Assembly: GCF_002797575.1 (NCBI RefSeq)
Contig: NZ_PGTX01000001.1
Span: 62,001 to 126,000, forward strand
From: Polynucleobacter brandtiae
GTDB taxonomy: Bacteria; Pseudomonadota; Gammaproteobacteria; Burkholderiales; Burkholderiaceae
Direction: 5' to 3'
Length of the DNA stretch: 64,000 bases
A model generated the notes under the pieces. It worked only from the letters and a program-made list of their open reading frames with translations, searched no databases and was not told where the DNA came from. Of this stretch, positions 15,082 through 42,347 are shown piece after piece (within the stretch, counting starts at the first letter, position 1; every line of letters begins with the position of its first letter). A program made the position numbers and the translations under genes.

Positions 15082-15261
15082 ATGAGAAAAGTAATACCAA
15101 AAACGCATCAAGCTTTGGATTGGATAGGGAAGGGTATGTCAGCTGCACAAGCTGCTAGAAAGATGGAAATATCAGAATCTAGCGTCTATGCCGCCCTAAG
15201 AAAGATGAAGGCAAAAGATTTAGGTTGCTGTCCAACATGTGGTCATAAAGTGAAGAGATAA
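15082..15261 (+). CDS. Small HTH / zinc-ribbon protein
   Basis: A 59-residue protein. The first half looks like a resolvase- or transposase-type helix-turn-helix (GMSAAQAARKMEISESSVYAAL). The last 12 residues carry CCPTCGHK, a half zinc ribbon that could bind metal as a dimer. ATG 15070 is also in frame, but a perfect GGAGGTGA lies just before ATG 15082 and would be inside the coding region of the longer form, so 15082 is preferred. Three bases separate its stop from the next ATG. DNA or RNA binding is likely; the target is unknown. Confidence 0.7.
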   Translation: MRKVIPKTHQALDWIGKGMSAAQAARKMEISESSVYAALRKMKAKDLGCCPTCGHKVKR

Positions 15262-15264
15262 AAA

Positions 15265-15564
15265 ATGAAAAAGATTCTATTAGCCCTAGTTACTGCCTCA
15301 GTAGCTGCATTTGCGTATGCCAACAGTGCTTCTGATTCCTCGGAGTTATTAAGCCAGCAATGCAAGATTTCAGCCCAGGCCGTATCTTCCTTGAAAGAAC
15401 TGCGCTATGGCAACACCTCAATCCGAAAAGATGTAACTGGGTTGATTAATATGAGTTTAAAAGTGCAGGAAAATAGAGATGCTGCTCAACAAACCCTCAA
15501 TAAAATGGTGGACGATCGCATCAATACCATTTCCGCTTTAGAAGAAAAGTATTGCTCGGTTTAA
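15265..15564 (+). CDS. Small secreted protein, unknown function
   Basis: A 99-residue protein with a clear Sec signal peptide (MKKILLALVTASVAAFAYA, cleavage near residue 20). The mature part is helical and hydrophilic, with two cysteines (about residues 33 and 97) that could form a disulfide in the periplasm. The gene begins 3 bp after the HTH/zinc-ribbon gene, so the two are probably co-transcribed. I do not recognise the family. Confidence 0.75.
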   Translation: MKKILLALVTASVAAFAYANSASDSSELLSQQCKISAQAVSSLKELRYGNTSIRKDVTGLINMSLKVQENRDAAQQTLNKMVDDRINTISALEEKYCSV

Positions 15565-15602
15565 TTATTAGCAATTCAGCAATCAAATAATTAAGCGATC
15601 TA

Positions 15603-16064
15603 ATGCCCAATTCATTTGAGTGCTCTGAGTGCGGTAATCCAAGGGTGATGTTAGATGACTGCCAGCACTGTGGCAGCAGCACACTTCCGGCAGTATTGAT
15701 GGATACCCTCGTGCTTAACCTCAAGTTTGGTAGCCCCAGTGCCGAGGAGGCATTGGAGCGCTTGACTATTAGCTTAAGAAGAGCATCGGAAGTCGGTGTC
15801 AAAGTGATTATGTTGATACATGGCTATGGCGCCAGTGGAGAGGGTGGCTTTATCAAGCATGCCGTACATGCTGCGCTGGAGAGCAACTATTTCTCTGATC
15901 GTGTGAGCGAATACCATTATGGTGAAGAGACGGCATTTGGAAGTGAGGCCTATCACGCACTACTCAAGAGAAGACCTTCACTAAAGGGGTATCTGAAGCA
16001 CTTTAAGCAGGGTAATGCCGGTATGACTGTACTCATATTAGGTATGTATGCGATCAATGCTTAG
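15603..16064 (+). CDS. Zinc-ribbon protein with Smr-like domain
   Basis: Residues 7-24 form a four-cysteine zinc ribbon (CSEC...CQHC). From about residue 33 the sequence follows an Smr domain: a leading strand (DTLVLNLKF) in the place of the usual DLHG motif, a helix pair (EEALERLTISLRRASEVG), then IMLIHGYGASGEGG and a closing strand. Smr domains bind or cut nucleic acids. Here the DLHG motif is lost while the HGxG loop is kept, so nuclease activity is doubtful. Length 153. It sits between a secreted protein gene and the yqjD-like set. Assignment by motif reading only. Confidence 0.6.
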   Translation: MPNSFECSECGNPRVMLDDCQHCGSSTLPAVLMDTLVLNLKFGSPSAEEALERLTISLRRASEVGVKVIMLIHGYGASGEGGFIKHAVHAALESNYFSDRVSEYHYGEETAFGSEAYHALLKRRPSLKGYLKHFKQGNAGMTVLILGMYAINA

Positions 16065-16109
16065 AATAGAGTAGTTAAATCCTTTTAATATAGGCTTTGG
16101 GAGAGAAAA

Positions 16110-16448
16110 ATGACTACCAAAAAAGCAGCATTAGAGTCACACAAAGATATTGATCAAAGTTCTGAGCATTTAGTAGATGACTTTAAGGCCTTGATGGCTG
16201 ATGCGGAAGCGTTGATTAAAGCAACTGCGCAACACGAAGAGGGGCCATTAAATGCTATTCGGGCTCGGGCGATCGAGACCTTATCAAGTGCTAAACAGAA
16301 TTTAGCAACGCTGGAAGATGGCTTAATGGATAAAGCTAAGGTAGCTGCTGAAGGTGCAGATGATTTTGTTCATCACAAGCCATGGCAAGCTGTTGGTATT
16401 GCTGCTGGTGTTGGTGTTTTGATCGGCTTACTCATGAGTCGTCGATAG
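16110..16448 (+). CDS. DUF883 (YqjD/ElaB) family protein
   Basis: A 112-residue protein: a long helical soluble part (residues 1-88, rich in Ala, Glu and Lys) followed by one C-terminal transmembrane helix with a glycine zipper (AVGIAAGVGVLIGLLM) and a basic tail SRR. Family members are inner-membrane proteins reported to bind ribosomes in stationary phase. GGGAGAG lies before the ATG. It is the first gene of a three-gene yqjD-yqjE-yqjK-like operon. Confidence 0.85.
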   Translation: MTTKKAALESHKDIDQSSEHLVDDFKALMADAEALIKATAQHEEGPLNAIRARAIETLSSAKQNLATLEDGLMDKAKVAAEGADDFVHHKPWQAVGIAAGVGVLIGLLMSRR

Positions 16449-16454
16449 CTCGCC

Positions 16455-16823
16455 ATGTCACAAGAAAATATGCTTTCTGCAGTCAAAAATCTGGTCTCCA
16501 CTGCAGCCGCTATCACCCAGACCCGTTTAGAGCTTCTCTCAATCGATGTGCAGATTGCCCGTTCTCAATTTATGCGGCTGCTGGTTTTTATTAGCCTAGC
16601 CTTATTCTTTCTGTTTTTTGGCCTAGTCATGCTTGCCTTACTCATTGTGATTTATAGTTGGGAAACGAATCGTATGATGGCCCTAGGCCTTCTCAGTGGT
16701 GGATTTTTATCAGTGGGTTTAATCTTGGCTTTAGTAGTACTGCGCTCTTTAAAGACTATGCCCAAATTGTTTGAGTCATCTATTGCCGAGCTTGCTAAAG
16801 ATCGCCAGGCGCTATCGAAATGA
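16455..16823 (+). CDS. YqjE-like membrane protein (phage-holin-like superfamily)
   Basis: A 122-residue protein with two transmembrane helices (about residues 36-68 and 74-100) and an amphipathic N-terminus. This matches the YqjE family, which annotation pipelines often label phage holin family. Its place 6 bp after a yqjD-like gene and overlapping a yqjK-like gene by 4 nt shows that it is a chromosomal housekeeping gene and not a prophage remnant. The role is unknown; envelope stress or stationary phase has been suggested for the set. Confidence 0.82.
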   Translation: MSQENMLSAVKNLVSTAAAITQTRLELLSIDVQIARSQFMRLLVFISLALFFLFFGLVMLALLIVIYSWETNRMMALGLLSGGFLSVGLILALVVLRSLKTMPKLFESSIAELAKDRQALSK

Positions 16824-17104
16824 AGCATCCATCCTTAGCTGAGCTCACAGCTCGTCAACAATTGCTGCAGGCAAGGGCCGCCCAAGAACGCTCTGATTTT
16901 GCGCTACACTTTGAGCCTCTTGAGATGCCACTTTCTTGGGCGGATAAAGGGGTTGATGCCTTTCATTTCATTTCAAGCAATCCTTTTTTATGGAGCAGTG
17001 CATTTGCAGTGCTCGCGCACTACCGACCCAAATTAGCCACTAAGGCACTAGCAGTCGGTTGGGGCGCTATCAAATTATTCAAAACTGCCAAAAATCTCAT
17101 CTAG
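16820..17104 (+). CDS. YqjK-like protein
   Basis: A 94-residue protein with N-terminal helices (LAELTARQQLLQARAAQERSD) and a hydrophobic segment around FISSNPFLWSSAFAVLAHY. The ATG overlaps the stop of the yqjE-like gene (ATGA). Small proteins of this form follow yqjE in many proteobacteria. No enzymatic motif is seen. It converges on apt with 19 bp between the stops. Confidence 0.7.
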   Translation: MKHPSLAELTARQQLLQARAAQERSDFALHFEPLEMPLSWADKGVDAFHFISSNPFLWSSAFAVLAHYRPKLATKALAVGWGAIKLFKTAKNLI

Positions 17105-37079: not shown

Positions 37080-38045
37080 TTATGTGAACTTTTTTGCTGG
37101 AGTGGGAATGGCATATTTCACGGCTATTACTTCAGCTAAGATGGCAATGGCAATTTCAGGAGGGGTGAGAGCGCCAATATACAGACCAATTGGCCCATAG
37201 AGCTTATCCAACTGCGCTTGGGTTAAATCAAACTCCAGTAGGCGAGCTTTGCGTTTTACTGTATTGGTATGGCTACCCAAGGCGCCAACATAAAAGGCGG
37301 GGGATTTTAAAGCTTCCATTAAAGCCATGTCATCTAATTTGGGGTCATGCGTTAGCGCCACAACTGCAGTATGCGAGTCTACGCCAATCTCAAGCAATAC
37401 ATCGTCCGGCATACCGCGCATAAACTGAATATGCTCACGATCAATGCCTTCTGCGTATTCCTCGCGTGGGTCAATGACGATCACTTCAAAGTCGGATGCC
37501 AGAGCAAAATCAGCGGTGTATAGAGAAAGTTGTCCAGCGCCAATAATCACCATGCGCCAGCGGGGGCCATAGCTGGTTTTCATGATGCTTTTATTGCAGA
37601 TGAAAGTATCGTTGCGACCTCCATCGGACAAAGTTGACTTGCCGCTACTTAAATCAATCGTACGACAAGTAATGGCGTGATTTGAAATAGATTGCAGAAT
37701 TTGCTCAAGCACTAGGAGCTCTGGCCTGGGCTCAACGAGTAATCTTAACGTTCCTCCGCAGGGTAAGCCAAAGCGTGATGCTTCTTGTTGGCTGACGCCA
37801 TAAATTACCATCTCGGGTAAGTCTCGACTCAGAATTTCTGTTTGCACTCTACGAATCAGATCATCCTCAACGCAACCACCAGAAACTGAGCCCATGACTT
37901 GCCCATCACTACGAATCGCCAGCCATGATCCAACAGGCCTTGGAGCAGAGCCCCACGTTTGGACTACTGTGGCAATGGCGACCCGATGCCCTTCTTTAAG
38001 CCAATGTACGGCAGCCTTAAGTACGCTTAGATCCGTGCTATTCAT
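37080..38045 (-). CDS. XdhC/CoxI family protein
   Basis: Accessory protein for molybdenum hydroxylases; family members handle sulfuration and insertion of the molybdenum cofactor. The N-terminal XdhC domain shows TWGSAPRPVGSWLAI and GSVSGGCVEDDL with Cys residues. The C-terminal Rossmann half has VIIGAGQLSLYTADFA and the VALTHDPKLDDMAL region. Length 321. It is divergent from a MocA-like gene (64 bp apart), a frequent pairing. No molybdenum hydroxylase gene is in the window. Confidence 0.9.
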   Translation of the reverse strand: MNSTDLSVLKAAVHWLKEGHRVAIATVVQTWGSAPRPVGSWLAIRSDGQVMGSVSGGCVEDDLIRRVQTEILSRDLPEMVIYGVSQQEASRFGLPCGGTLRLLVEPRPELLVLEQILQSISNHAITCRTIDLSSGKSTLSDGGRNDTFICNKSIMKTSYGPRWRMVIIGAGQLSLYTADFALASDFEVIVIDPREEYAEGIDREHIQFMRGMPDDVLLEIGVDSHTAVVALTHDPKLDDMALMEALKSPAFYVGALGSHTNTVKRKARLLEFDLTQAQLDKLYGPIGLYIGALTPPEIAIAILAEVIAVKYAIPTPAKKFT

Positions 38046-38109
38046 TTGTGGTCTTTTTCTTTAATTTACTTTTGCTGCATTTTTACTGAATCGTTTTATT
38101 ATCACGCTA

Positions 38110-38760
38110 ATGACTAATCTGAGCATTCAAAGTGGGACTCCTACAACACGCGTTGCTGTTTTATTGCTTGCGGCAGGCGAGGGCAGTCGTTTAGGCGGTT
38201 ATCCCAAGGCTTTATTGAAGAAAGATGACCAAACCTTATTAGAGCATTTGGTGATCTCGACTAAGTCTATGGCGCCCATAGAGTTTGTAGCAGTTACGGG
38301 ATTTTATGCGGAGGCAATTGAGGGTGAAATCGATCGCCTTAATAGGGCGCATGACCTGAATATCAAAACTTGCTTGAACCCATATCCCGAAAAAGGCCAA
38401 TCCTCTTCCATTCGCCTGGGTCTAGAGTCGCTCCAAAGTGCATTTGACGTTCTATTCGTGGCTCTTTCTGATCAACCAGAAATAGGCTGTATGGAGATCA
38501 GTGAATTATTGGAGGGATTTACTAATCGACCTCCTGGAACTCAAATTGTTTTGCCTATGGTGGGCAAGCAACGGGGTAATCCAGTGTTATTTTCTAAGGG
38601 GGCAGTCGATGAAATCTTGGCGATTAGCCAAATGGTTTGCCGATCATATATGGATGCAAATCCAGCGTTAATTTATCGTCTAGACACAAATCGCCAGGCT
38701 TTCATACAAGACGTTGACACGCCAAAAGATATCAGCAAATATCAATTATCAAAAAGCTAG
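38110..38760 (+). CDS. MocA-like molybdenum cofactor nucleotidyltransferase
   Basis: Nucleotidyltransferase of the MobA/MocA fold, which adds CMP (or GMP) to molybdopterin. LLLAAGEGSRLGGYPKALL (about residues 18-36) is the NTP-binding start, ALSDQP is the metal-binding Asp motif, and GNPVLFSKG matches the MocA GxP(V/A)LF motif. GGYPKAL rather than GGxDK argues for MocA over MobA. Length 216. Probably works with the divergent XdhC protein on a Mo-hydroxylase. Confidence 0.85.
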   Translation: MTNLSIQSGTPTTRVAVLLLAAGEGSRLGGYPKALLKKDDQTLLEHLVISTKSMAPIEFVAVTGFYAEAIEGEIDRLNRAHDLNIKTCLNPYPEKGQSSSIRLGLESLQSAFDVLFVALSDQPEIGCMEISELLEGFTNRPPGTQIVLPMVGKQRGNPVLFSKGAVDEILAISQMVCRSYMDANPALIYRLDTNRQAFIQDVDTPKDISKYQLSKS

Positions 38761-38782
38761 TAGCGACTTTGCCACCATAAAA

Positions 38783-38836
38783 TTACTTAGGCTACCTAGG
38801 TAACTTAGGTAACTTAGGTAACTTAGGTAACTTAGG
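38783..38836. repeat. Six tandem 9-bp units (TAACTTAGG)
   Basis: Units read TTACTTAGG, CTACCTAGG and then four perfect TAACTTAGG copies, 54 bp in all. The array fills most of the gap between the convergent MocA-like and RidA genes and supplies the RidA stop codon. Length differences between strains are likely, as for other short tandem arrays. Confidence 0.95.
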
Positions 38837-39293
38837 CAATCTCGGCAATTAACTCGATTTCTACGCAAGCACCCAGCGGAATTTGGGCAACACCAAATGC
38901 ACTGCGGGCATGTTTGCCGACTTCTCCAAAGACCTCAAGCAAAAGCTCTGAGCAACCATTGATCACTAAGTGTTGCTCTGTGTATTGCTCTGTGGAATTT
39001 ACAAGCCCCATTACCTTAACGATGCGCTTTACTTTATCTAAAGAGCCTAAGTGCTCTTGCAGTGTTGCAATCAAATCAATAGCAATCGTTTTTGCGGCAG
39101 CTTTACCTGTTTCAGTGTCCATATCTAAACCCAATTTTCCGGCCCATGCCTTACCGTCTCTTTTGGCGATATGACCAGAGAGAAATACCGTATTGCCGGT
39201 AGTAACGGCCATTACATAAGCTGCTGCAGGCGGTCCAGGTGGGGGTAGGTTGATACCGAGAGTTTTGATTCTATCGCTAATGAAATTGGTCAT
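38832..39293 (-). CDS. RidA/YjgF family protein
   Basis: A 153-residue protein of the RidA (YER057c/UK114) fold. Family members hydrolyse reactive enamine/imine intermediates. VFLSGHIAKRDGK, LKVKRIVKVMGLVNST (about 80-100 region) and the C-terminal GVAQIPLGACVEIELIA fit; the canonical RidA Arg before a hydrophobic (ARSAFGVAQIPLG) is present. The frame can be extended to 39413, but this would overlap the upstream VWA gene, and the N-terminal part is not RidA-like. ATG 39293 is preferred. Confidence 0.88.
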   Translation of the reverse strand: MTNFISDRIKTLGINLPPPGPPAAAYVMAVTTGNTVFLSGHIAKRDGKAWAGKLGLDMDTETGKAAAKTIAIDLIATLQEHLGSLDKVKRIVKVMGLVNSTEQYTEQHLVINGCSELLLEVFGEVGKHARSAFGVAQIPLGACVEIELIAEIA

Positions 39294-39387
39294 GGGTTCT
39301 GTGTGGGTAGAAATAAAATTTAAGAAGTAAAAAGTAGAAAATCGGGAAATAAAAAAGCCACAAGTAAAAAAAGCTGATAGATCAATA

Positions 39388-40566
39388 TTACTTCGAAAGT
39401 TGTCGCATGGCACTCTCTAGGCCCTGTAATGTGACTGGATACATACGATTTTTCATGAGGCCCTGCAAGATGTCAATCGATTGCCGATATTGCCAAACAG
39501 ACTCAGGCTCTGGGTTTAACCAAGCAAAATTAGGAAAATGATCAATTAGTCGATGAATCCAATTTGCACCAGGTTCTGAATTATTATTTTCAACTGAGCC
39601 ATTCACGCTCAGTATTTCATATGGGGACATGGTGGCATCGCCAATAAAAATAAGTTTGTAGTCTGAGCTGTATTTATTAATGATGTCCTGAGTTAGCAGG
39701 ATCTGATCCCTTCTGCGGCGGTTACTCTGCCACAGATGCTCATAGACGCAATTATGAAAATAGTAATATTCAAGATGCTTAAATTCGGTTCTTACAGCTG
39801 TAAATAATTCAGAGATGCGCTGTATGTGGTCGTCCATTGATCCACCAACATCCATTAGCAGTAAAACTTTGACTTGGTTATGTCGCTCTGGCCGCATCTG
39901 AATATCTAGTATCCCAGCATTAGCTGCTGTTGAGTGGATGGTTTTGTCCAAGTCTAATTCAAGATTAGAGCCTTCTCTTGCAAAACGTCGTAAGCGACGC
40001 AGTGCCATTTTGAGATTACGCGTTCCAAGACTGACATTGCTGTCATAGTCTTTGAACTCACGCGCCTCCCATACCTTAATAGCAGTTCTATTTCCAGCGC
40101 TCTCGCCGCCAATACGGATGCCCTCGGGGTGGTATCCGCTGTGACCAAAAGGAGAAGAGCCTCCAGCGCCTATCCATTTATTACCGCCGCCATGCCATTC
40201 TTTTTGCTCTTTTAACAGCTCCTGTAAGCGCTTCTGTAGCGCTTCTAGTCCACCTAACTTCTTAAGGGCTGATTTTTCTTGAGCACTTAATACGCGCTGC
40301 AGTTTCTGTTCGAGCCAATCTAGGGGAATCTCTGGTGCCAGAGAGATGATGCGCTCTATTCCTTTAAAATACGCGCCAAAAACTTGGTCAAATCGATCAA
40401 AATATTGCTCATCTTTGACTAGAGTCATTCGGGCAAGTTGATAAAACTCATCAATCGAGGGGTTGATGACGTTCTGCTTTAAGGCATCTAACAGCGTGAG
40501 AAATTCTCGGACGGATACCGGTATCTTGGCTTCTTTTAAATTAAGAAAAAATTGAATAAGCATCAA
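39388..40566 (-). CDS. VWA-domain protein, CoxE-like
   Basis: A von Willebrand factor A domain at about residues 225-392 with MIDAS motif DVGGSMD (DxGxS) and the Thr/Asp loop IFIGDATMSP. The N-terminal half (residues 1-120) is helical with MLIQFFLNLKEAKIPVSVREFL, the start seen in CoxE-type proteins. Such proteins work with a MoxR/CoxD ATPase to mature metal enzymes; the ATPase gene lies 24 bp upstream. Length 392 is normal for CoxE-like proteins. Confidence 0.85.
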   Translation of the reverse strand: MMLIQFFLNLKEAKIPVSVREFLTLLDALKQNVINPSIDEFYQLARMTLVKDEQYFDRFDQVFGAYFKGIERIISLAPEIPLDWLEQKLQRVLSAQEKSALKKLGGLEALQKRLQELLKEQKEWHGGGNKWIGAGGSSPFGHSGYHPEGIRIGGESAGNRTAIKVWEAREFKDYDSNVSLGTRNLKMALRRLRRFAREGSNLELDLDKTIHSTAANAGILDIQMRPERHNQVKVLLLMDVGGSMDDHIQRISELFTAVRTEFKHLEYYYFHNCVYEHLWQSNRRRRDQILLTQDIINKYSSDYKLIFIGDATMSPYEILSVNGSVENNNSEPGANWIHRLIDHFPNFAWLNPEPESVWQYRQSIDILQGLMKNRMYPVTLQGLESAMRQLSK

Positions 40567-40590
40567 ATGCTAACGTTTTGATTTTAAATA

Positions 40591-41442
40591 TTAGCGATGA
40601 TTGCGATTCATGGTGATTAAACGCTCAAACAAATGAACGTCTTGCTCATTCTTCAGTAGTGCCCCATGCAAGGGCGGTACTGAAATCTTTTCCTCCGAGC
40701 TATAAAGGGCCTCAGCAGGAATATCTTCAGCAAGTAAAAGCTTTAACCAATCGATTAATTCAGAAGTGGATGGTTTCTTTTTTAGTCCTGGAAGGGATCT
40801 GATTTGATAAAAGGATTTGAGCGCCGCTTCTAAAAGATCGTGTTTTATGTGGGGATGATGCACATCCACAATGCTTTGCATGGTTTGCGCGTTGGGAAAG
40901 GAGATGTAATGAAAAAAGCAGCGACGCAAAAAAGCGTCAGGAAGCTCTTTTTCATTATTCGATGTAATGATTACTAAAGGACGGTGTTTTGCTTGAATGA
41001 GTTCACGGGTCTCATAGACATAAAATTCCATACGATCGATTTCTCGTAAAAGGTCGTTTGGAAACTCAATATCTGCTTTATCAATTTCATCAATTAGAAG
41101 GACGACTGGTTCATCCGCTTCGAACGCCTGCCATAACACCCCTTTAATGATGTAGTTCGCAATATCTTTCACCTTTGCATCGCCCAACTGCGAGTCACGC
41201 AAACGGCTCACGGCATCATATTCATACAAGCCCTGTTGTGCTTTTGTAGTGGATTTAATGTGCCATTGCATCAGCGGCATATTGAGAGCTTGAGCTACTT
41301 CTTCCGCCAGCATTGTTTTGCCCGTTCCCGGCTCGCCTTTAATGAGAAGAGGGCGTCCAAGCGTGATGGCCGCATTGACGGCTAATTTAAGATCTTCCGT
41401 TGCTACATAGCTCTGGGATCCATCAAAGCGGGATTTGTTCAC
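40591..41442 (-). CDS. MoxR-family AAA+ ATPase, CoxD-like
   Basis: AAA+ chaperone ATPase. Walker A GEPGTGKT is at residues 36-43, Walker B is VLLIDEIDKAD, sensor 1 is ITSNNEKELPDAFLRRCFF with the Arg finger pair. Length 283 with the compact MoxR C-terminal lid. CoxD uses this fold in assembling the active site of CO dehydrogenase. It heads a two-gene unit with the VWA protein gene. Confidence 0.9.
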   Translation of the reverse strand: MNKSRFDGSQSYVATEDLKLAVNAAITLGRPLLIKGEPGTGKTMLAEEVAQALNMPLMQWHIKSTTKAQQGLYEYDAVSRLRDSQLGDAKVKDIANYIIKGVLWQAFEADEPVVLLIDEIDKADIEFPNDLLREIDRMEFYVYETRELIQAKHRPLVIITSNNEKELPDAFLRRCFFHYISFPNAQTMQSIVDVHHPHIKHDLLEAALKSFYQIRSLPGLKKKPSTSELIDWLKLLLAEDIPAEALYSSEEKISVPPLHGALLKNEQDVHLFERLITMNRNHR

Positions 41443-41561
41443 AGTGATCTTTCGGTATTTAATTCGGTGTCGGCAAGGCTAAAGTATAGGGAATGAAGCT
41501 CAAATTTTGATACTTTTGTTGATTTAAGAGCTTTGGATGCAGGTTGAATTGCGCTCTCCGC

Positions 41562-41567
41562 TATAAT
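41562..41567 (+). promoter_or_regulatory. Candidate -10 for cytochrome genes
   Basis: A perfect TATAAT lies 43 bp before the ATG of the first cytochrome c gene (41611). No convincing -35 is found at 16-18 bp. The start would be near 41574. Assigned by eye. Confidence 0.4.
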
Positions 41568-41610
41568 CGTGGGCAATTGATCCATATCGAACTCGTTAAT
41601 GATGATTTCC

Positions 41611-41976
41611 ATGAAAAAACACTTACTTCTTACTCAATTAGCCCTTTGTGCTGGTTTTGCTTTAGCTAGCTTGTCTGTTCAAGCTGCCGATGTTCAGGGC
41701 TCGGCTAAAGCAGGTCAAGGCAAAGTGTGGCTTTGCGTCGGCTGCCATGCAATCCCTGACTATCGCGCTGACTATCCTTTTGTATACAAGGTTCCCATGA
41801 TTGGCGGTCAAAATGCTGCCTATATTGCAAGTGCACTAAGCGCCTACAAAAAAGGCGAAAGAAAGCATCCAACGATGCGTGCAATTGCGGGTAGCTTGTC
41901 GGATCAAGATATGGCCGATATTGGCGAGTACTACGCTGCACAAACTGCCGCCACACCACCCAACCCATTGAAGTGA
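41611..41976 (+). CDS. Secreted c-type cytochrome
   Basis: A signal peptide (about 25 residues, ending VQA) is followed by one heme-binding motif CVGCH. A distal Met is likely from KHPTMRAIAG. At 121 residues it is a small class I cytochrome c of the periplasm; ATG 41599 would add four residues, but the Lys-rich signal start argues for 41611. It is followed after 17 bp by a second cytochrome gene. Confidence 0.9.
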   Translation: MKKHLLLTQLALCAGFALASLSVQAADVQGSAKAGQGKVWLCVGCHAIPDYRADYPFVYKVPMIGGQNAAYIASALSAYKKGERKHPTMRAIAGSLSDQDMADIGEYYAAQTAATPPNPLK

Positions 41977-41993
41977 TATTCAGAGACATATTT

Positions 41994-42347
41994 ATGAAAT
42001 TCGCCCTAATTACTACTTTGTTGATCTCAAGTCTTGGCTTGGCTACTGTTTCTAATGCTGCTAGCGTTGAAAAAGGCAAGGCTCTTTCTGAAACGGGCAA
42101 TTGCGCATCTTGCCATGGGGCAGGTTTAAATGCGCCAATTTTGCCCGCTTATCCTAAGCTTGCTGGCCAATACTCTGAATATGTTTATTACGCGCTTCGG
42201 GCTTACAAGGTCGGCAATAGCAATCCTCAATTTGGTCGCAATAATGCCATTATGACTAGTCAGGTTCAACCTTATTCAGACCAAGATCTGCATGATTTAG
42301 CTGCTTATGTTGGCTCTTTGCCTGGGAATTTCGTTATTAAGAAGTAA
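41994..42347 (+). CDS. Secreted c-type cytochrome
   Basis: A signal peptide (about 21 residues, ending SNA) precedes a CASCH heme motif; the likely distal Met lies in NNAIMTSQVQPYS. Length 117. The upstream in-frame GTG 41973 overlaps the previous gene, and ATG 41994 starts directly at the signal peptide, so the latter is used. Together the two cytochromes probably carry electrons in the periplasm; paired small cytochromes accompany some molybdenum hydroxylases, which fits the neighbouring accessory genes, but this is inference. Confidence 0.9.
   Translation: MKFALITTLLISSLGLATVSNAASVEKGKALSETGNCASCHGAGLNAPILPAYPKLAGQYSEYVYYALRAYKVGNSNPQFGRNNAIMTSQVQPYSDQDLHDLAAYVGSLPGNFVIKK

Follow-up and report, generated by a model that had tools for sequence, protein, structure and literature searches.

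The accessory-gene locus

The window analysed here, a 64,000-nucleotide stretch of a Polynucleobacter genome, contains a compact run of seven genes that resembles an accessory set for molybdenum hydroxylases (Mo-hydroxylases) and raises the question of which enzymes it serves. The gene order is XdhC, a divergent MocA-like gene, a RidA-like gene, a von Willebrand factor A (VWA) protein, a MoxR-like ATPase and two small c-type cytochromes, flanked by parE/parC on one side and by a GntR gene, methylmalonyl-CoA mutase (MCM) and MeaB on the other. The nearest relatives of the VWA protein are in other Polynucleobacter genomes, at 84–89% protein identity. Profile or structure matches confirm all of the accessory genes named in a preliminary description of the locus (XdhC, MocA-like, VWA, MoxR-like ATPase and the two cytochromes), from which the RidA-like gene between MocA and VWA was missing. 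The features are as follows.

37080..38045, minus strand: XdhC-family chaperone binding the molybdenum cofactor (Moco) (PF13478, 119 bits; PF02625, 77 bits)
38110..38760, plus strand: MocA-like nucleoside triphosphate transferase, Moco cytidylyltransferase-like, divergent from XdhC (PF12804, 79 bits)
38832..39293, minus strand: RidA/YjgF-like protein, between the two modules (PF14588, 63 bits; PF01042, 56 bits)
39388..40566, minus strand: VWA protein, start TTG (PF05762, VWA_CoxE, 38.3 bits)
40591..41442, minus strand: MoxR-like AAA+ ATPase, start GTG, Walker A GEPGTGKT (PF07728, 54 bits; PF00004, 52 bits)
41599..41976, plus strand: first small c-type cytochrome, cytochrome c4-related, divergent from MoxR (6q2u, E 1e-16)
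41991..42347, plus strand: second small c-type cytochrome, cytochrome c4-related (PF00034, 49.6 bits; 1etp, E 2e-18)

The first cytochrome has a CVGCH motif but no Pfam match at E 0.001, and the second has an alternative GTG start open at 41973. Each is a single domain, whereas their best solved relative, cytochrome c4, is a two-domain protein.

The XdhC protein contains both the XdhC_CoxI and the XdhC Rossmann domains, its nearest solved chains are 2we7 (6e-39), which was deposited as xanthine dehydrogenase, and 3on5 (6e-22), and it is 44–55% identical to the XdhC homologues of the cox and IorAB clusters of relatives. It is present in a single copy, with one XdhC_C match in a profile search of the whole genome. 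By analogy with characterised relatives, as described in passages of a review (PMC2997495), MocA would add cytidine monophosphate to the molybdenum cofactor, giving its cytosine form, and XdhC would bind the cofactor and keep or help to make its sulfur ligand. A stand-alone xdhC-mocA pair is an already described arrangement; passages of the same review propose, in terms it calls speculative, that such a pair serves several molybdoenzymes. The arrangement here is like that of Arthrobacter nicotinovorans pAO1 in having a single XdhC and MocA apart from the hydroxylase genes, and differs in that the two genes are divergent and inserted between ridA and parC, and in having Sox paralogues linked to one of the likely targets. 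No paper on Polynucleobacter and xdhC was found in the one open-access library searched. In six other genomes of the genus (G003, G015, G043, G046, G077 and G099) the MocA matches lie within open frames of about 595–633 residues, which are perhaps fusions.

The MoxR/VWA pair

The MoxR gene, with its intact Walker A motif, adjoins the VWA gene here and in the Burkholderiaceae loci that were read, as in an AAA+/VWA chaperone pair. Metal sites of VWA domains have the motif DxSxS. In an alignment of 56 members of the window VWA family, with a mean column identity of 82%, the corresponding motif DVGGSM (positions 239–244) is invariant, with a glycine rather than a serine at its third position. Searching the solved structures by profile and by sequence returned no VWA relative below E 0.24. 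Predicted models of the protein have a mean predicted local distance difference test score (pLDDT) of 48.1 with 12 alignment rows and 58.4 with 56, and a Foldseek search of the PDB with the model gave no match at E 0.001; a low-confidence model has a weak match to NorQD chains (E 0.07). In published passages on NorQ/NorD, RavA/ViaA and CbbQ/CbbO an AAA+ ATPase gene likewise lies beside a VWA gene; the window pair differs from these in having no client gene alongside.

Another comparison is with CoxD, CoxE, CoxF and CoxG of CO dehydrogenase, which in the passages of PMC4240915 that describe them likewise combine a MoxR-type AAA+ protein, a VWA protein and an XdhC-type protein. However, the VWA and MoxR proteins of the window come from other families and there is no coxL beside them. 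The VWA match to PF05762 exceeds the cut-off (38.3 against 26.4 bits) and covers only positions 7–100 of the 222 in the profile; it is the sole VWA_CoxE match in its genome. In ten Burkholderiales genomes the same profile gives 13 matches at 143.7–235.3 bits, which are true CoxE genes, and nine window-type matches at 22.2–35.6 bits, plus three other VWA genes; a profile built from the window-type family finds a member in all ten. Of the 13 true CoxE loci, the window VWA detects just one at E 1e-5, with 24% identity. At 11 of the 13 a MoxR about 30–41% identical to that of the window lies in a 3.6 kb stretch, and at five there is an XdhC 44–54% identical to the window's. Among the matches listed, at least five of the 13 true CoxE genes also lie close to a Mo-hydroxylase, being 3.5–4.2 kb from a match on the same contig to PF02738, the profile of the Mo-hydroxylase large subunit (G119, G245, G321, G112 and G310). 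We have therefore rejected the window VWA as a CoxE on its scores (22.2–38.3 bits for its type), the lack of an adjacent coxL and its occurrence without Mo-hydroxylases.

The history of the locus is most readily seen by comparing 80 loci, which are those of the closest relatives of the window VWA only. Thirty-four of them reach parC, and in 26 of these XdhC and MocA are in place between RidA and parC, so that the gene order is not a matter of chance; three have XdhC alone, and five have neither gene, the RidA and parC matches there being just 21–128 bases apart. XdhC is in none of the 46 loci that do not reach parC, and all 40 of those with at least 20 kb of sequence hold both cytochromes and MoxR-VWA with no XdhC or MocA. 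Losses within the genus are reciprocal: MoxR-VWA is gone from G049, G080, G051, G067 and G108, which keep XdhC-MocA and the cytochromes and have RidA beside the cytochrome gene cytA, while G058, G081 and G097 have lost XdhC-MocA and retain an intact MoxR-VWA, with RidA beside parC (G107 is arranged in the same way, but its VWA is broken). The RidA-like gene is thus kept at the locus when either module is lost. Seven other genomes without the VWA (G110, G016, G068, G032, G091, G109 and G100) have XdhC without its usual flanking genes in the 18–19 kb read. We also note that four loci (in G107, G105, G102 and G017) are decaying copies with broken VWA, XdhC, MocA, MCM or MeaB genes, in genomes of 1.6–1.9 Mb.

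The distribution of the VWA gene was examined in 111 Polynucleobacter genomes, drawn evenly from the genus, and in 250 genomes of the order that are at least 95% complete. In the genus it is present in 77 (a count that includes broken or partial copies in G017, G102 and G107 and contig-end copies in G052 and G088); 72 genomes have both VWA and PF02738, 13 have PF02738 only, five VWA only and 21 neither. Discordance between VWA and Mo-hydroxylases is thus 18 of 111, compared to 3 of 111 for XdhC, even though VWA is only 0.6–1.5 kb from MocA and XdhC. In the order the VWA family is present in 118 genomes and PF02738 in 138, with 100 having both, 18 VWA only, 38 PF02738 only and 94 neither. Fisher tests gave small p-values for all of the pairs, VWA included, and they ignore shared ancestry; we have therefore placed weight on how many exceptions there are and of what kind, and on how the loci are built. 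The surroundings of VWA were read in 13 of the 18 VWA-only genomes of the order, and MoxR was found in four (adjacent in G352, G257 and G120, and 3.3 kb away in G338) and was not found near VWA in the other nine. The MoxR/VWA pair is therefore found in genomes with no PF02738, both in these four and in G058, G081 and G097, and its family also holds VWA genes without a neighbouring MoxR. Such an occurrence is one of the two results that the preliminary description had named as refuting its reading. At ten loci, VWA relatives (49–58% identical) lie beside an aldehyde-dehydrogenase-like gene with no MoxR found in 16–19 kb; eight of the ten also have GMC-oxidoreductase-like and signal-bearing protein genes.

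Because of the reciprocal loss at the locus, the presence of the pair without Mo-hydroxylases and the assignment of CoxE to a different family, MoxR/VWA is a module separate from XdhC/MocA, and one that is widespread in Burkholderiaceae relatives; the preliminary description had placed the VWA, the ATPase and the cytochromes in one set with XdhC and MocA, and that grouping does not stand. What comes to light instead is a highly conserved MoxR/VWA pair, which would most likely remodel, or insert metal into, a protein other than a Mo-hydroxylase, perhaps a respiratory one. Tentatively, and at rather less than even odds, MoxR/VWA and the two cytochromes may together be a respiratory maturation unit, the pair maturing an oxidase or dehydrogenase whose electron carriers are the c4-like cytochromes. 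The divergent cytB-cytA/MoxR-VWA block is found in 78 of the 80 closest loci, the other two ending at a contig edge, and also in loci of families f4, f7, f9, f10 and f47, and in the passages on known MoxR/VWA pairs NorQ/NorD and RavA/ViaA act on respiratory enzymes. However, five Polynucleobacter genomes keep the cytochromes and lack MoxR-VWA; the 80 loci are those of the closest VWA relatives only; and in more distant families (loci L117–L135 and L148) neither cytochrome was found at any of 20 loci, ten of which have MoxR.

Mo-hydroxylases elsewhere in the genome

The 2.0 Mb assembly (99.98% complete) has two PF02738 matches, both outside the window, which bears out the reported lack of a large subunit at the locus, and the suggested search of the rest of the genome for coxLMS/xdhAB-type genes yields a CoxG-M-S-L-like operon and an IorA-IorB pair. 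The first has the order CoxG-like, flavin adenine dinucleotide subunit, 2Fe-2S subunit and large subunit, followed by a short-chain dehydrogenase, and the same arrangement recurs in all five of the CoxL-type loci read within the genus (CoxL and IorB loci were picked by hand from the listed matches and not at random). The active-site loop of form I CO dehydrogenase is AYXCSFR. In the CoxL-like subunit the loop reads CQYRGVGH, and we have rejected it as a form I CO dehydrogenase because the loop is absent and the TIGR02416 score is 450 bits against a cut-off of 991; no copper insertion is therefore expected. The second is an IorB-type subunit 752 residues long, the start of which resembles a twin-arginine signal (SRRHFVVG). 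An IorA-like 2Fe-2S protein of 149 residues is encoded ahead of it, and relatives of SoxX, SoxY, SoxZ and SoxA come after it. The other result named as refuting the preliminary reading, a Mo-hydroxylase operon with a full accessory set of its own, did not turn up: tblastn at E 0.001 found no relative of the window XdhC, MocA, VWA or MoxR within 20 kb around either of them, and XdhC_C and VWA_CoxE each have a single match in the genome.

XdhC follows the Mo-hydroxylases closely across the 111 genomes of the genus, with both XdhC_C and PF02738 in 83, PF02738 only in two, XdhC only in one and neither in 25. Both of the PF02738-only genomes are incomplete (G022, 83%; G052, 78%), and the XdhC hit in G009, at 20.6 bits and under the cut-off, was scored as absent (the raw tally is 85). 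MocA is in 81 genomes, all of which have XdhC, and only G017, G032 and G069 have XdhC without MocA. Since targets for XdhC and MocA are present in the same genome, no hydroxylase of a new type is required, and the earlier suggestion of one is superfluous, even though one of the known-type enzymes is unusual in being joined to a sox-like operon. The expectation that the target lies elsewhere holds for XdhC and MocA, and fails for MoxR, VWA and the cytochromes.

We favor the explanation, with a probability of about 0.83, that the locus comprises two modules with separate functions, placed side by side by the history of the locus, with XdhC and MocA forming a finishing pair for Mo-hydroxylases encoded elsewhere and MoxR and VWA a chaperone pair of another family. 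XdhC and MocA would be the shared finishing pair of the genome for Mo-hydroxylases of the xanthine-oxidase family, XdhC loading the cofactor into the large subunit of the cytosolic CoxG-M-S-L-like enzyme and, before export, into IorB, whose twin-arginine translocation (Tat) signal points to a periplasmic enzyme. Several observations weigh against this explanation. The MocA-like protein has TIGR03310 (MocA) as its best NCBIfam match, at 102.6 bits and below the cut-off of 186.45, and it is poorly conserved, with about 48–59% identity among close relatives compared to 70–85% for XdhC. One genome, G020, retains XdhC and MocA and has no PF02738 match; both genes are at their usual locus and the genome is reported as 100% complete. 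Among the matches listed, only five of the 13 true CoxE genes were placed near PF02738, and at two of the 13 loci there is no MoxR hit in the 3.6 kb stretch. The XdhC counts, like those for VWA, carry no correction for phylogeny, and VWA presence still correlates positively with Mo-hydroxylases in both genus and order, a correlation that we ascribe to shared ancestry, genome reduction and, within the genus, position.

It is improbable that XdhC and MocA serve just one of the two Mo operons and that the other is a relic; some genomes do have a single kind of Mo-hydroxylase, but XdhC is present with either kind alone (in 10 of 10 genomes with a single PF02738 match in the IorB score range, and in 4 of 4 with one in the CoxL-type range), and both operons are intact and conserved. 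A single accessory set for Mo-hydroxylases, with MoxR/VWA acting as CoxD/CoxE and the cytochromes accepting electrons, is very improbable, since the adjacency of the genes at this locus, the PF05762 match above cut-off and the positive VWA correlation are set against the reciprocal losses, the 40 long stretches with cytochromes-MoxR-VWA and no XdhC or MocA, the intact MoxR/VWA pair in genomes without PF02738, the different family of the relatives' CoxE and a CoxL-like enzyme without the form I loop. With the two-module explanation, an apparently incomplete accessory set becomes two testable assignments, and a wrong link between VWA/MoxR and Mo-hydroxylases, suggested by automatic 'CoxE/CoxD-like' names in Burkholderiaceae, is removed.

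The Sox-linked hydroxylase operon

The less expected finding is the Sox-linked target, which lies outside the window. Two sox-type regions of the genome are relevant.

L006:6693-11546 (contig C6 of the same genome, near 24 kb): IorA-IorB-SoxX-SoxY-SoxZ-SoxA operon
L197:8090-14771 and 15221-16986, including adjoining genes: main sox operon (SoxB, X, A, Z, Y, D and C, by reading of the genes and two NCBIfam matches)

The IorAB operon resembles the Sox thiosulfate-oxidation system in its SoxX (69.5 bits, cut-off 61), its SoxA (221 bits, cut-off 110), its SoxZ-like protein (75.8 bits, cut-off 76) and its relative of SoxY. It differs in that the SoxY relative belongs to a known family, TIGR04487 ('SoxY-related AACIE arm protein'; 194 bits, cut-off 172), and in that a reading of its genes by eye found no SoxB, SoxC or SoxD. 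As a true SoxY the protein was rejected, since it scores 82.6 bits against a cut-off of 125 and ends in SACTEMI rather than GGCGG; in most copies the C-terminal arm is SACTEMI or AACLEE-like. The full sox operon at L197, by comparison, has SoxB, SoxC, SoxD and a SoxY ending in GGCGG.

The association is conserved. Within the genus, 13 of 15 IorB-type loci have the order IorA-IorB-SoxX-SoxY-SoxZ-SoxA, with the Sox genes partly lost in G105 and absent from G043. A wider comparison took in 30 loci, either from other genomes or of paralogues. At 22 of them IorB is at least 49% identical to that of our genome, and 18 of these, including loci from eight other families, have relatives of SoxY and SoxZ alongside (12 have all four Sox relatives); the four without SoxY/SoxZ include a 71% identical second copy in Polynucleobacter G035. 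At the other eight loci IorB is 37–46% identical and none has SoxY/SoxZ relatives, three having XdhC instead. Three SOX clusters, one of them of four genes (Pnuc_1154-1157), are mentioned in a passage on a Polynucleobacter strain (PMC3308952). The link of the SoxY relative to IorAB was not found in the literature searched, there being no description of such an operon in passages on isoquinoline 1-oxidoreductase, soxA or SoxYZ from a single open-access library.

These data point to a conserved operon of a Mo-hydroxylase and Sox paralogues. We regard as speculative, and on balance unlikely, the further proposal that XdhC and MocA chiefly serve this periplasmic hydroxylase and that it and its Sox paralogues make up a single system, in which IorAB would act on a substrate that a SoxYZ-like carrier, with an AC(T/L)E arm, either still binds or has released, oxidising it and passing electrons to the SoxX/SoxA cytochromes. 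If true, sulfur-carrier chemistry in the Burkholderiales would have a Mo-hydroxylase branch, at the place that SoxCD occupies in the ordinary pathway. We note also that genes resembling a molybdate ATP-binding cassette transporter (permease and ATPase) lie beside the main sox operon.

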